In this document: positions 30,795-34,666 of the stretch, piece by piece
How positions within the stretch are numbered: the stretch's first letter is position 1
How the letters are laid out: each line of letters starts with the position of its first letter
Assembly (NCBI RefSeq): GCF_014137945.1
Contig: NZ_JACGWX010000004.1
Location: 62,001 to 126,000, forward strand
Length of the DNA stretch: 64,000 bases
From: Microcella alkalica
Lineage (GTDB): Bacteria > Actinomycetota > Actinomycetes > Actinomycetales > Microbacteriaceae
Reading direction: 5' to 3'
Program-made: the position numbers and the translations under genes
Notes under the pieces: model-generated
Database searches by the model: none
The model's input: only the letters and a program-made list of their open reading frames with translations
What the model was told of the DNA's origin: nothing

Positions 30795-30827
30795 ACGAAG
30801 GCCCCGCCGTTCCGGTGGGGCCTTCGT
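30795..30827 (+). terminator. Rho-independent-type terminator hairpin
   Basis: A 14-bp stem with one G-T pair (left arm ACGAAGGCCCCGCC, right arm GGTGGGGCCTTCGT) and a 5-base loop lies 18 bp after the LAETG gene. Its T-run is weak, as is usual in high-GC actinobacteria. It closes the polysaccharide region. Confidence 0.8.
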
Positions 30828-30881
30828 CGTGCGCGGGATGCTGCCGGATCGTTAGTGGCGCGGGCGCGGTAGCGTCGAGGG

Positions 30882-31574
30882 ATGCCCATGACCTCCGCCG
30901 TCGGCGCGCGACGCGCAGTGCTCGCGGCCCTCGCCGCGATCGCGACCTCCGCCCTCGTCGGGTGCGCCGGCGTGGGCCCGGCCGGCACGTCCGCATCCGT
31001 GCCCCCCGGCGACGGGCCCATCGTCGCCTTCTACGGCGACTCGTACACGCTCGGCACCGGGGCCTCCGACCCGTCGAAGCGGTGGTCGACGATCATCGCC
31101 TCCGACCGCGGCTGGCGCGAGTTCAACCCGAGCGTCAACGGCCTCGGCTACGTGCGCAACCGCTCGATCGTCGGCGACGGCGACCTGCCGTCGCTGATCA
31201 TCGAGCAGCAGCCCGACATCGTGTTCATCACGATGGGCCTCAACGACAACTTCGACTACGACCGCGTGGGCGAAGGGATCCGCGAGGCGATGATCGCCGA
31301 CATCGACCGTCTCGTCGCCGGGCTGCCCGACGCGCGCCTCATCGTCGTCGAGCCGTTCTGGTACACCGACGAGCGCCCCGAGTCGGTCGAGATCATCAGC
31401 GGATGGCAGCGCGAGCAGGCCGAGCGCATCGGCGCCGACTACATCGCCGGCGCCTCGCGCTGGATCGAGGGCCGCCCCGACTGGATGGCGATCGACGGCC
31501 TCCACCCCAACGACGAGGGCTACGCCGCGATGGCCGAGCGCATGGATTCCGAGCTCGAGAGGCTGGGCCTGTGA
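30882..31574 (+). CDS. SGNH/GDSL hydrolase lipoprotein
   Basis: A 230-residue secreted esterase-like protein. A signal peptide ends in a lipobox (SALVGC, Cys about residue 28), so it should be lipid-anchored outside the membrane. The SGNH blocks are FYGDSYT (nucleophile Ser), GLNDNFD (Asn) and IDGLHPNDEG (Asp and His of the catalytic pair). Substrates could be O-acetyl groups on glycans or lipids. The gene ends GTGA, where the GTG is the reconstructed original start of a second SGNH hydrolase now displaced by the ATPase cassette. Confidence 0.88.
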   Translation: MPMTSAVGARRAVLAALAAIATSALVGCAGVGPAGTSASVPPGDGPIVAFYGDSYTLGTGASDPSKRWSTIIASDRGWREFNPSVNGLGYVRNRSIVGDGDLPSLIIEQQPDIVFITMGLNDNFDYDRVGEGIREAMIADIDRLVAGLPDARLIVVEPFWYTDERPESVEIISGWQREQAERIGADYIAGASRWIEGRPDWMAIDGLHPNDEGYAAMAERMDSELERLGL

Positions 31575-31600
31575 TCGTCGGCAGCTACGCCGCGATCGGC
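31575..31600 (+). repeat. 26-bp direct repeat, left copy
   Basis: These 26 bases, beginning TCGTCGGCAGCTACGCC and ending GCGATCGGC, recur exactly at 32955-32980. The left copy starts at the first base after the stop of the first SGNH gene; the right copy lies inside the first codons of the second. The distance between copies is 1380 bp. Confidence 0.95.
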
Positions 31601-31602
31601 AG

Positions 31603-32868
31603 TCACGGCCCGAGCTGATCCGCCGGAACGACCCAGACGCCATCCGGTCGCCGAAAGGCTGCTCCGGAGGGGATCACCACGACCAGTGCCCTCGGGGTCG
31701 TCTGCACGCGCGATTCGCCGAGCGAGATCAGCGCGGCCGCTGCCTCGTCGATTCTCGAACCGCCCAGCTTGATCTCGAAGGCCATCCATGCGCCATCCGG
31801 GGTGGTGACGATGACGTCTGCCTCGAGCGCGCCGCTGCTCTCGCGATAGTGGAAGGTGCGCGCGCCGATCGCGTCGGCGTAGCACCGCAGATCCCGAACG
31901 ACCAGGTTCTCGAACAGCGAGCCCATCGTGTTGAGGTCGCCCACCATGCCGCGACTGTCGACACCGAGCAGGGCGGCAGCGATCGACGGGTCGGAGAAGT
32001 ATCGCTTGGCGGTGCTCACGAGACGCGAGCGTGATCGAAGGGCGGGCGACCAGGCGGGGAGATCCTCGATGACCATCAGGCGCTCTGCGGCCACGCGATA
32101 ACGATCCGCGGTTTCCGCGGTGAAGCCTGACGTCGAATCGCCGAAGGCGCGACGAACGATCTTTGCCAGCGGGATCGGAGCTCCCGTCACCTGCGCGTAC
32201 GCCGTCAGGAACCGTTCGAGAGCGCTGGGGTCTCGCGGTCGACCGGCCAGCGCGGGAAGGTCGTTGTCGATCAGCGCGGTGAGATAGGCCTGCGGGAACC
32301 GTTCGGCACGCGATTGCGACGCGCGCGCTGTGGCCGGCCAACCACCGCGAGCGATGAGCTCCGCGGTCTCGTGAAGCGACCTCGTCGTACCGGGAGAGGG
32401 GGCCGCACCCCCGTCGAGCAACGCGCGCAGGCTCACAGCGCCCCGTGACGCGCCGGACTCGAAGGAACTCATCGTCCGCATTCGAATGCGACTGATTCGG
32501 CCGGCGCCCGTGTGTCGGGCGATGTCGTCGATGGGCATCGCCGACCCGGTCAGAAGGAACTGCTCGGGCTCGCCTCCGGCGTCGTCGACGGCGCGGCGGA
32601 TGTGATCCCAGAGGGCGGGGACCAGTTGCCACTCGTCGAGGAGGATCGGTCGCGCACCGGAGAGCAGAAGCGACGGTTCGAGCTCTGCGAGTTCTCGAGC
32701 CTGCCGGTCGACGTCGAGTCGGATGGTCGTCGCCGCGAGCCGGCTCGCGGTCGCCGTCTTCCCGACCGCGCGTGGACCTTCGATCACTACGGCGCCGACC
32801 GTGGCCAGCTCCCGGGCGATGACATCATCAGCAATGCGCGGCAGGTACGATGAGTCGCTTGCGGGCAT
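31603..32868 (-). CDS. AAA ATPase with DUF4143 domain
   Basis: About 421 residues. VVIEGPRAVGKTATASRLA is the Walker A loop (about residues 27-45) and RPILLDEWQLVPAL is Walker B. VEQFLLTGSA-like sensor (EQFLLTGSAMP) follows, then a winged-helix/DUF4143 part ending with a nuclease-fold-like ALEADVIVTTPDGAWMAFEIK. Such proteins are widespread, often strain-specific, and their role is unknown; defence or toxin-antitoxin functions have been suggested for some. ATG 32868 is preferred; TTG 32892 is in frame. It is encoded against its neighbours inside a 26-bp direct-repeat-flanked cassette. Confidence 0.85.
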   Translation of the reverse strand: MPASDSSYLPRIADDVIARELATVGAVVIEGPRAVGKTATASRLAATTIRLDVDRQARELAELEPSLLLSGARPILLDEWQLVPALWDHIRRAVDDAGGEPEQFLLTGSAMPIDDIARHTGAGRISRIRMRTMSSFESGASRGAVSLRALLDGGAAPSPGTTRSLHETAELIARGGWPATARASQSRAERFPQAYLTALIDNDLPALAGRPRDPSALERFLTAYAQVTGAPIPLAKIVRRAFGDSTSGFTAETADRYRVAAERLMVIEDLPAWSPALRSRSRLVSTAKRYFSDPSIAAALLGVDSRGMVGDLNTMGSLFENLVVRDLRCYADAIGARTFHYRESSGALEADVIVTTPDGAWMAFEIKLGGSRIDEAAAALISLGESRVQTTPRALVVVIPSGAAFRRPDGVWVVPADQLGP

Positions 32869-32881
32869 GGTGCACTGTACC

Positions 32882-32915
32882 GCAATTCGCAAGACTTCTA
32901 TTCGGCAATTTGCAA
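32882..32915 (-). promoter_or_regulatory. Low-GC upstream region of the ATPase with a paired motif
   Basis: GCAATTCGCAA (32882-32892) and GCAATTTGCAA (32905-32915) differ by one base and are spaced 23 bp apart, about two helical turns. The second contains the odd palindrome GCAA-T-TTGC. The surrounding 60 bases are distinctly AT-rich compared with both flanks. This fits a promoter with tandem operator sites, perhaps for autoregulation, but no regulator is identified. Confidence 0.4.
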
Positions 32916-32941
32916 CCCATATAGTCAGGAATTTTCATACC

Positions 32942-33733
32942 ATGGTCTCCACGCTCGTCGGCAGCTACGCCGCGATCGGCGACAGCTTCAGCGAGGGCAT
33001 GGGCGACGAGCTGCCCGACGGGAGCCCGCGCGGCTGGGCCGACCTCGTCGCGCTCGGGCTCGCCGCGGCGCACGCGAGCGCCGGGGGGTCGGGCTTCGGC
33101 TACGCGAACTTCGCCATCCGCGGCCGATTGCTCGGCCCCATCCTCGCCGAGCAGCTGCCGCCGGCGATCGCCCTCGGCCCCGAGCTGCTCACCCTCAACG
33201 GCGGAGGGAACGACATCATGCGCCCGCGGGTCTCGGTGGCGGAGACGGCCGACCGCCTCGTGGACGCGGCCGGCGAGGCGGCGGCGGCGGGCATCCGCGT
33301 CGCGATCGTCAGCGGAGCCGACCCCACCAGGCACATCCCCCTCGGCCCGCTCATCAGGGCGCGCGGCGACGAGCTCGCCGTCGCGGTGCGCGACCGGATC
33401 GCCGGAACCGGCATCGCCTTCATCGACAACTGGTCGGATGCAGCGCTCACCGACCTGAGGTACTGGTCCATCGATCGCCTCCATCTGAACGCTCTCGGCC
33501 ACGCCCGCGTCGCCGGAAACGTGCTCGCGGGCCTCGGGGTCGCGGTGCCGGAGGCCTCCCACGCCCCGCACGGCGACACCGAGCCCGACATCGCGCGCCC
33601 CCGCACTGCCGAGTACTGGCGGCAGTACGTGCTGCCGTGGATCGGCCGGCGCCTCACCGGGCGCTCGTCCGGCGACGGGCGCGCGGCGAAGCGACCGACG
33701 CTCCTGCCGGTCGAGGTGCCGCCGGAGATCTAG
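32942..33733 (+). CDS. SGNH/GDSL hydrolase, cytoplasmic
   Basis: A 263-residue SGNH hydrolase without a signal peptide. Block I is AIGDSFSEG with the nucleophile Ser, block III is NGGGNDIMRP with Asn, and block V is RLHLNALGH with the His. The C-terminal LPWIGRRLTGRSSGDGR tail is common in actinobacterial members. The ATG at 32942 and three further codons come from the inserted cassette; codons from 32955 onward match the left repeat. There is no clear ribosome-binding site before this ATG, so expression may be altered relative to the ancestral coupled gene. Confidence 0.9.
   Translation: MVSTLVGSYAAIGDSFSEGMGDELPDGSPRGWADLVALGLAAAHASAGGSGFGYANFAIRGRLLGPILAEQLPPAIALGPELLTLNGGGNDIMRPRVSVAETADRLVDAAGEAAAAGIRVAIVSGADPTRHIPLGPLIRARGDELAVAVRDRIAGTGIAFIDNWSDAALTDLRYWSIDRLHLNALGHARVAGNVLAGLGVAVPEASHAPHGDTEPDIARPRTAEYWRQYVLPWIGRRLTGRSSGDGRAAKRPTLLPVEVPPEI
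32955..32980 (+). repeat. 26-bp direct repeat, right copy
   Basis: This copy is identical to 31575-31600. Here it encodes part of the N-terminus (LVGSYAAIG) of the second SGNH hydrolase and continues directly into GACAGCTTC (Asp-Ser-Phe), the active-site block. In the left copy the sequence after the repeat is unrelated. Confidence 0.95.
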
Positions 33734-33739
33734 GTCAGC

Positions 33740-34666
33740 TCAGCGCGGCGCGAGCGTCGCGGCGATGACGAGCAGTGCGGGCACGGCGCCGATCGTCGAC
33801 AGCAGCACGGCATCGCGCGCGACCGCGACGTGCCGGTCGAAGCGGTGCGCCCAGCTGAAGACGTGCTGTGCGGCGGGGAGGGCCGCGAACACGACGACCG
33901 TGAAGAGCGGCATGCCCGAGAGCCCGAACACGAGCCAGCCGACGAGCCACGCGATCGTCGGCATGACGACGACCTTGAGCGCGGTCGCGAGCAGCGCGTC
34001 GCGGCGGCCGGTGCCGGGGGCGAGCACGCGCACGCCGTGCAAAGACATCCCGAACAGCAGCAGGATGATCGGCACGGCCGCCCCGCCCACGAGCCTCACG
34101 GGCTCGAGCACGATCTCCGGCAGCCGCAGCCCCGTGACGGCCAGGAGCACGCCGACGAGCGAGGCGATGATGATGGGGTTGCGGATCGGCTGCAGCAGGA
34201 TGCGCCCGATCGACGCGCGGCCGCTCGTGCTGACATCGAGCACGGCGAGGGCGATCGGCGCGAACACCGTGAGGTTGAGCAGGATCACGGGCGCCGCGAG
34301 CGCCGCGTCGCCGAGCACGAAGATCGCGATCGGCAGGCCGATGTTGTTGGCGTTGACGTAGCCGGAGGCGAGGGCGACGATCGTCGTCTCGGGAACTCCG
34401 CGGCGCCAGACGAACCGCGCGACGACGGTCGCGATGAGGAAGCACGACACCGCGGCGATCGCCGAGATCGGGATGAGCGAGGAGAACAGCCGGCTGACGT
34501 CGGCCTCCGAGAGCACGGTGAGCAGCAGCAGGGGAGTGAGCACGAAGAACGCCAGGCGCGAGAGCACCTGATCGGCGCCCTCGCCGAGCAGGCCGATGCG
34601 CGCGATGATCCAGCCGAGGCCGATGATCGCGGCGATGACGGCGAAGCCGGTCAGCACCCCGATCAC
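33740..34666 (-). CDS. AEC-family transporter (auxin efflux carrier-like)
   Basis: A 308-residue membrane protein with ten predicted helices in two halves of five. GYVNANNIGLPIAIFVLGD in the fourth helix is the conserved AEC motif, and LFGMSLHGVRVL lies before the second half. Bacterial members export or import small organic acids such as malate; the substrate here is unknown. The GTG start is preceded by GGGAGGCG. Its C-terminus lies 6 bp from the end of the convergent SGNH gene. Confidence 0.88.
   Translation of the reverse strand: MIGVLTGFAVIAAIIGLGWIIARIGLLGEGADQVLSRLAFFVLTPLLLLTVLSEADVSRLFSSLIPISAIAAVSCFLIATVVARFVWRRGVPETTIVALASGYVNANNIGLPIAIFVLGDAALAAPVILLNLTVFAPIALAVLDVSTSGRASIGRILLQPIRNPIIIASLVGVLLAVTGLRLPEIVLEPVRLVGGAAVPIILLLFGMSLHGVRVLAPGTGRRDALLATALKVVVMPTIAWLVGWLVFGLSGMPLFTVVVFAALPAAQHVFSWAHRFDRHVAVARDAVLLSTIGAVPALLVIAATLAPR

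Follow-up and report, generated by a model that had tools for sequence, protein, structure and literature searches.

The PDC-S01 family, with roughly 39,000 genes, is reportedly the fourth commonest defence system across prokaryotes (PMC12988326), its defence role being a candidate label, with validation pending for most PDCs; the part of that paper available to us gives no mechanism for it. Long direct repeats left by insertion are known from IS1549/IS1634, whose target duplications vary in length from 8 to 514 bp according to the accessible part of PMC2266710. Here we describe the recent insertion of a one-gene cassette with a PDC-S01-like gene, found in a 64-kb stretch of DNA that was analysed as a whole (the window). 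Our main new result is that the array of 23-bp units preceding this gene recurs in modified form across a large branch of the family.

The sequence TCGTCGGCAGCTACGCCGCGATCGGC forms an exact 26-bp direct repeat with copies at 31575-31600 and 32955-32980, the sole direct repeat of at least 18 bp in the window, and a search of the whole genome allowing 3 mismatches returned these two copies only. After one copy and the 1,354 bp were deleted in silico, the reconstructed site aligned as a single block with six relatives, L003-L007 and L010, the last of which has a small additional insertion at the junction. Four same-genus relatives (L003, L004, L006 and L007) carry a single exact 26-mer directly 3' of the GTGA overlap within an uninterrupted coupled pair of SGNH hydrolase genes, and L005 has a single copy with 5 mismatches. 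Given these empty sites with a single copy, the cassette was therefore inserted into the start of the second SGNH gene with duplication of 26 bp, and the reading frame of that gene was rescued by the insert's own in-frame ATG at 32942. ATPase matches in seven other genomes of the genus all lie at other places than this site, and the 26-bp similarity did not turn out to be conserved independently in the two genes. The insert consists of three 23-bp units, one gene, 2 bp beyond its stop codon and little else; ORF and domain searches revealed no recombinase in it, and an Rfam scan of window positions 30800-33800 gave no match. The initial annotation had read the core of the locus correctly, namely the perfect repeat, the SGNH pair rebuilt by deletion, the replacement ATG, a lone AAA/DUF4143 gene on the opposite strand, no accompanying recombinase, and the empty site to be sought in relatives.

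Table 1 Features of the insertion locus (window coordinates)
Feature	Position	Strand	Remark
First SGNH/GDSL hydrolase gene	30882..31574	+	TGA overlaps the GTG at which the second SGNH gene formerly began
Residual original 5' end of the second SGNH gene	31571..31618	+	GTG, 26-bp copy, then stop within the insert; 15 codons before the stop
Left copy of the 26-bp target duplication	31575..31600	+	Repeat search, empty sites
Inserted DNA, 1,354 bp	31601..32954	n/a	No equivalent at this place in relatives
AAA_14 + DUF4143 + PD-(D/E)XK gene, PDC-S01 family	31603..32868	-	
Stop TGA of the ATPase-nuclease gene	31603-31605	-	2 bp off the left 26-bp repeat
Likely start ATG of the ATPase-nuclease gene	32866-32868	-	421 codons; TTG ORF extends to 32892
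23-bp array unit 3	32876..32898	-	Closest to the ATPase gene
23-bp array unit 2	32899..32921	-	
23-bp array unit 1	32922..32944	-	Outer end contains the replacement SGNH ATG
Replacement ATG of the second SGNH gene	32942-32944	+	Inside array unit 1
10-bp leader, array to right target copy	32945..32954	n/a	
Right copy of the 26-bp target duplication	32955..32980	+	Repeat search, empty sites
Second SGNH hydrolase gene	32942..33733	+	Frame kept via the insert's ATG

The only substantial gene of the insert, on the minus strand, encodes AAA_14 and DUF4143 domains. Across 23 sequences, residues G39, GKT44-46, D86-E87, E357, D359 and E373-x-K375 are invariant (numbered from the TTG ORF; the ATG at 32866-32868 is the more likely start), and we take them to be the Walker A/B and PD-(D/E)XK motifs. 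The protein matches the PADLOC profile of a phage-defence candidate, PDLC04790 (PDC-S01; AAA_14 + DUF4143), over nearly its full length (residues 7-427 of 429, 214 bits, E 5e-64), which places it in a widespread family of candidate antiviral function. Members of PDC-S01, as characterised in the accessible part of PMC12988326, likewise join an ATPase to a PD-(D/E)XK domain. In Foldseek searches, the predicted middle domain (97 residues), considered as a candidate DNA-binding fold, had no match at E below 3, and Pyrococcus abyssi PABY2304 (PDB 2QEN), an archaeal AAA+ ATPase, ranked second for the whole model with a TM-score of 0.43 (query length); the TM-score is low, and the best PDB sequence match of the protein has an E of only 0.4. 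Two ATPase copies of genome G015 (L035 and L041) were considered as broken genes and rejected as such: their stops fall just before the likely start, and the genes are open.

The initial annotation called the region upstream of the gene an AT-rich promoter and did not recognise that it is made up of three 23-bp units. At lag 23 it shows 29 of 46 matches, a score that none of 60 shuffles equalled or bettered, and a sigma-70-type promoter scan of the array found no site. The three units lie over the promoter region and may constitute an operator-like array.

Period-23 arrays characterise a large clade of the ATPase-nuclease family. Of 41 related loci, a sample that contains three near-duplicate pairs, 39 had their best period directly upstream of the ATPase gene at exactly 23 bp. 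All 60 shuffles were exceeded in 36 of the 41, against 3/41 downstream and 0/41 inside the gene. On viral contigs and plasmids, 12 of 14 additional loci, scored by best lag alone and not against shuffles, had a best period of 23, and six of 111 ORFs from the window and seven fetched stretches showed a significant period 23, all of them ATPase genes. The repeat sequence varies from locus to locus while the spacing stays at 23 bp, and genome G674 has five distinct arrays. The arrays share a motif with a variable spacer of ~6 bp; it scores 6.36 bits, compared with 3.84-4.30 bits for the 12 controls. Over 46 loci, array sequence tracks protein sequence (Mantel r -0.29; 0 of 5,000 permutations as extreme), which suggests a cognate binding array that travels together with its gene. 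Loci with the array form a clade of 46 rows with support 100/100, subject to a caveat on row labelling.

The array marks one clade, not DUF4143 genes in general. Its presence in all such genes was considered and rejected, as a significant upstream period occurred in 5 of the 30 PF13635 loci that score highest in the phylum (period 23 in three, 22 in one and 24 in one; a sixth had a best lag of 23 below significance). Among 36 ORFs of 7 genomes, significance was reached by a period of 22-24 in 11 and by one of 32-33 in another two; five of the 36 coincide with loci of that PF13635 set, and none of these five belongs to the 11.

On balance, we consider it probable that the locus represents a one-gene cassette, composed of an operator-like array and a PDC-S01-type ATPase-nuclease that binds it, and that this cassette was captured at a staggered break. 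The ATPase-nuclease would bind its own 23-bp array, most simply as self-repression, such that the protein would be restrained until an invader upsets that state, and the array would accompany the gene as its private switch. Incoming DNA comprising array, gene and little else would then have been captured at a double-strand break with staggered ends, whose overhangs of ~26 nt were presumably filled in and joined to yield the 26-bp duplication. Among insertion routes, such capture fits best. The genome encodes Ku (PF02735, E 3.6e-49), which makes capture possible, although its occurrence does not follow from Ku. The compact unit of array and gene recurs in five insertions that could be compared with empty sites, this one and four others. 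However, chance capture alone predicts no excess of direct duplications around other DUF4143 genes, and these exceed expectation (13/82).

That excess speaks for a self-mobile element, in which the ATPase-nuclease would use its own array as a recognition end, place widely spaced nicks in the target and insert array and gene, so that the target duplications would vary in length. Direct duplications of at least 40 bits surround 13 of 82 DUF4143 loci compared with 0.07 expected from cross-locus pairs, and control places gave 0/27 and 0/65. Copies hug the unit at three other loci (L194, 49 bp; L115, 254 bp; L051, about 411 bp), and on its gene side the compact unit extends little or nothing beyond the stop codon (2 bp in this cassette, 0 bp in G006). 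The range known for IS1549/IS1634 offers a precedent and runs counter to the initial annotation's view that direct repeats of this length are not usual for transposase duplications.

Nevertheless, we regard self-driven insertion as unlikely. Protein pairs of at least 60% identity were absent from the 36 ORFs examined in 7 genomes, a subset of the copies there, which argues against a copying element, and the window genome holds a single cassette. The initial annotation had expected repeats of 20-30 bp at other DUF4143 genes; none of 40 other loci has a short target duplication, the longest flanking repeat being 12 bp and in the wrong place (L042; 0.25 expected). The four other insertions with empty sites exhibit host loss or unclear junctions instead of duplications, and the other three cases of copies hugging the unit are less clean than the 26-bp one. 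At L051, the flanks occur in the opposite order in relatives, 107 bp apart in G150 and 1.5 kb apart in G249, and at L058 they are widely separated in G221 and G265, so that neither was kept as a clean duplication. Nor does the target resemble the array, since 33% of sampled 86-bp window stretches outscore the empty site. The self-contained element proposed initially is half supported: the compact unit of array and gene recurs, and its self-driven movement is putative. The broader idea of a transposase-free one-gene mobile element, whose AAA+ ATPase-PD-(D/E)XK nuclease inserts its own array and gene and which became a common 'defence' gene by spreading, appears distinctly unlikely.

Other candidate boundaries were examined as well. 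L040 was rejected as a clean duplication: between its two neighbours, G011 lacks the entire ~3.5-kb stretch that contains the AbiE-like genes, and L040 is therefore an island. L044 and L046, considered as a pair with repeated boundaries, share neighbouring sequence and are probably one site. L115 and L125 share only about -9 to +37 bp around the gene, and L116 and L120 only about -83 to +53/62 bp; neither ARAGORN nor Rfam detected any tRNA or other RNA within the L115 repeat.

A further improbable route is homologous exchange, by which transformation with DNA of a donor carrying the cassette upstream of a related SGNH gene would have led to homologous joining on the right and illegitimate chance joining on the left. 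This would agree with the in-frame SGNH start codon (ATG) at the end of the insert, and with L040, L051 and L058, where the neighbouring gene has a long ORF past the stop and, ahead of the array, a partial copy. Yet over the first 100 bp right of the junction the identity to four relatives is 96-100%, and the following 500 bp remain at the left gene's level or somewhat lower, with no foreign-looking start; a donor with the cassette-SGNH order was not found among 26 genomes of the genus. By eye, the neighbouring genes at L040, L051 and L058 are AbiEii, a SET-domain gene and msrA, respectively.

Finally, the initial annotation had suggested a passenger mobilised in trans. A non-autonomous cassette moved by a transposase or integrase encoded elsewhere would need no recombinase of its own, and 26 bp is a usual length for integrase cores, but this reading is already weakened and very unlikely, there being one cassette copy, one DUF4143 match and no third 26-mer in the genome, and no terminal inverted repeat on the insert (exact inverted matches in the outermost 40 bp reach 4 bp at most).

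The PDC-S01 text available to us describes neither the 23-bp array nor single-gene insertion with target duplication, and the terms 'iteron' and 'target site duplication' are absent from the main text of PMC12988326. Among the matches listed for '23 bp repeats' with AAA ATPase, nuclease or defence, the phrase did not occur, and among those listed for iterons, antiphage function, ATPase and autoregulation, none concerned this family by title; matches for AAA_14/DUF4143 were nearly all off-topic by title, and no paper was found for PF13635, with preprints and subscription journals outside the scope. A promoter-proximal 23-bp array with protein-specific sequence provides a molecular handle on a large branch of the PDC-S01 family: it points to the probable DNA bound, the probable regulation and the boundary of the gene unit, and can be used for gene-start annotation and clade definition. 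The fresh insertion, with its empty sites, is an example of one-gene units entering chromosomes.

Compared with known mobile systems, the locus resembles IS1549/IS1634 in the long direct repeats arising from insertion, here 26 bp and backed by empty sites, but differs in that the insert is single-copy, lacks a DDE transposase and terminal inverted repeats, and is filled by an ATPase ORF. As to integrase-type elements, no core site was found elsewhere at up to 3 mismatches and no recombinase inside the insert, while for capture of broken ends by NHEJ, Ku is present in the window genome. Plasmid iterons and multi-site operators consist of tandem sites at nearly constant intervals next to the gene for the protein presumed to bind them, an arrangement that the array shares, its binding protein being putative. 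Any replication role would be putative here, and the array departs from these systems in retaining its 23-bp spacing while its sequence diverges.

The two 26-bp copies that bracket the ATPase cassette (31575-31600 and 32955-32980), at the start of the second SGNH hydrolase gene, are identical and are the sole direct repeat of at least 18 bp in the 64-kb window, and no third copy was found in the whole 2.74-Mb genome with up to 3 mismatches allowed, which bears out the exact repeat described in the initial annotation. That annotation had also predicted an empty site with a single copy next to a coupled SGNH gene pair. Gene content and kinship suggest that the host belongs to the Microbacteriaceae. 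When the second SGNH protein was used to query 26 genus members, the source genome among them, close relatives (63–90% identity) turned up in 22 of the 25 other genomes, and the window flanks, fused at one 26-bp copy, aligned as a single block to six of these relatives (L003-L007 and L010). Four of them (L003, L004, L006 and L007) have precisely the predicted arrangement, with one exact 26-mer right behind the GTGA overlap; the single copy in L005 has 5 mismatches, and L010 carries a small additional insertion at the GTGA/26-mer position. Rather than being shared by all relatives at this place, the ATPase gene has matches in seven other genomes of the genus, in each case at a location other than this one. 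Given the single-copy empty sites and the ATPase matches elsewhere, the event is therefore, on sequence comparison, a 1,354-bp insertion with a 26-bp duplication. The 100 bp immediately right of the junction are 96–100% identical to four relatives, indicating that the target was a conserved block and that the start of the right-hand gene is not foreign sequence.

Upstream of the ATPase gene, the insert carries an array of tandem 23-bp units, which occupy the expected promoter position; a simple sigma-70 scan gave no sigma-70 site, so the promoter itself is putative. As had been proposed, the cassette supplies a replacement ATG for the downstream SGNH gene; it sits at the outer edge of unit 1. 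The longest exact inverted match between the insert ends is 4 bp, no second copy of the cassette was found in the genome (short matches at chance level only), and the genome's only DUF4143 match lies inside the cassette.

Features of the insert, read along the direction of the ATPase gene
Feature	Position	Length	Strand	Remark
Leader		10 bp		outer end of insert
Array	32944 down to 32876		minus	three consecutive 23-bp units
Spacer between array and gene		7 bp
ATPase gene	ATG 32868 to stop at 31603		minus
Tail after ATPase stop		2 bp

The insert protein has the Pfam domains AAA_14 and DUF4143 and is a member of the known candidate phage-defence family PDC-S01 (PADLOC model PDLC04790, E 5e-64). 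The closest relatives found are at most 47% identical over nearly the full length, with one partial match at 53%. Their distribution is patchy: at a cutoff of E 1e-60, 31 of the 398 genomes of the family have one, counting the source genome. Across 23 aligned sequences there is no variation in the ATPase motifs or in a residue set, E-D-ExK, that is typical of PD-(D/E)XK nucleases. Sequence searching returned no relative of solved structure (best E 0.4). An AlphaFold2 model built on 12 sequences (pLDDT 83.6, pTM 0.83) resembles AAA+ proteins loosely, with RuvB as the top match and PDB 2QEN second at TM 0.43, and the middle 97 residues, modelled separately (pLDDT 74), gave no structural match.

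With the gene family already known, the main new result is the 23-bp array. The accessible portions of the literature accounts of PDC-S01 contain no such array, and none of the literature matches listed for repeats combined with ATPase and defence terms concerned the family by title. For 41 loci, a set that keeps the near-duplicate pairs L033/L034, L037/L038 and L044/L046, self-matching at lags of 15–35 was scored in the 190 bp surrounding the start of the gene. The best lag was exactly 23 in 39 of these loci (exceptions, 22 in L039 and 25 in L066), and the score exceeded all 60 dinucleotide shuffles upstream of 36/41 genes, compared to 3/41 downstream and 0/41 within the gene. By best lag only, without shuffles, 23 was also recovered at 12 of 14 added loci on viral contigs and plasmids (L102 and L104 being identical in sequence), including those of Bacteroides, Prosthecochloris, Collinsella and Lentilactobacillus; the other two are Thermus and Rhizobium genes. 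The window and seven fetched stretches together contain 111 ORFs at least 200 codons long; lag 23 was significant in six, all of them ATPase genes, and six further ORFs had significant repeats of other periods.

Each unit consists of a more conserved portion plus a variable ~6-bp spacer. A weak motif (6.36 bits vs 3.84–4.30 in 12 column-shuffled controls) is common to the units of 46 loci, which are 55 loci minus the near-duplicates L034, L038 and L046, the L102 copy L104, the truncated L103, the off-period L039 and L066, and the array-less L107 and L108. Over the same 46 loci (1,035 pairs), array similarity tracks protein similarity (Mantel r −0.29, 0/5,000 permutations). An 80-protein tree contains a 46-row clade (support 100/100) made up solely of rows labelled as array loci, the label being given by set rather than by significance: L055, L057, L064, L065 and L066 were each equalled or surpassed by at least one of the 60 shuffles (the best lag of L066 being 25), and the array status of the viral and plasmid rows comes from the best-lag test alone. 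In the tree, members of the window's family are interspersed with Bacteroidota, Chlorobiota, Cyanobacteriota and Gemmatimonadota, a pattern suggestive of horizontal transfer. Outside this clade arrays are rarer, with a significant period in 5 of 30 phylum-level loci.

By eye, some array-less phylum-level loci have palindromes near the gene start instead (L112, L114, L119, L129, L131 and L137, upstream of DUF4143 genes), such as AACCATT-n-AATGGTT and TTATGCATTTATAATGCATAA; these are perhaps another operator type in other DUF4143 lineages.

We read the array as the ATPase protein's own operator, which moves with the gene, and its position, period and co-variation with the protein support this reading. 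The protein would bind its own array and thereby repress, and release of the ATPase-nuclease would be the active step in defence. Eight ATPase genes were examined in one genome (G674); period 23 was significant at five of them, each with a unit sequence of its own, as expected if every protein reads its own array.

ATPase genes of the genus occupy eight sites with differing immediate flanks, and four of these (L033/L034, L035, L036 and L039) share a neighbourhood of ~20 kb that looks like an insertion hotspot. These four sites are in G001/G002, G015:C28, G006 and G020, respectively, and their neighbourhood lies near a tRNA cluster. Four further insertions were comparable with empty sites, with boundaries that are rough against relatives of ~75% identity: the G006 insert (~1.38 kb) ends at the stop codon TAG, with ~91 bp of host sequence lost, and those of G020 (~1.42 kb), G001/G002 (~1.45 kb) and G015 (L041, ~1.59 kb) end 66, 50 and 119 bp past the stop, respectively. 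None of the four has a clean duplication.

Direct similarity of at least 40 bits between left and right flanks occurred at 13 of 82 loci, vs 0.07 expected from cross-locus pairs, and inverted similarity at 1/82. Such direct repeats were seen at 0/27 SGNH-centred loci, in 2/67 control tiles, exactly those over the window insertion and L040 (inverted, 1 tile), and at 3/36 further ORFs. Because the controls were SGNH-centred loci and tiles, not other accessory genes, plastic regions may account for some of the excess. Both copies hug the unit of array and gene only at the window, L194 (49 bp), L115 (254 bp) and L051 (~411 bp, two blocks). The L194 pair, hairpin-like by eye and 96% identical on both sides of the unit, may be another short target duplication or else a terminator that recurs; the L115 repeat (92%) includes a stretch resembling a tRNA 3' end by eye, and ARAGORN and Rfam returned nothing for it. 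Relatives of L051 and L058 have the flanks swapped or widely separated, so that neither duplication is a simple one, L040 is part of a ~3.5-kb island with AbiE-like genes, and several remaining duplications lie far from the gene or adjoin a second ATPase gene. Given these cases and the possible contribution of plastic regions, variable-length duplication around ATPase units is therefore a lead, not a result.

At L040/L076 (G015:C34), the DUF4143 unit lies between partial and full-length AbiEii-like gene copies (402 bp, 97.5% identical), and genes that by eye are Ppx/GppA-like and MBL-fold-like flank the island. In L116 and L120 a 33-bp element, TGCAAACGCGCTGCAAACCAAACTGGATGATAC, occurs shortly past the stop codon, and in L120 upstream too.

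For the insertion itself, we favour capture of the cassette at a staggered break, which would then be filled in, because Ku is encoded in the genome, the cassette is unique there, and, among 36 examined ORFs of seven genomes (part of their copies), no two reached 60% identity, unlike what a copying element would leave. A transposase, too, can give rise to long duplications of variable length, as do IS1549/IS1634 according to PMC2266710, as of which no mechanistic model had been proposed for them; the window insert likewise has a long duplication.
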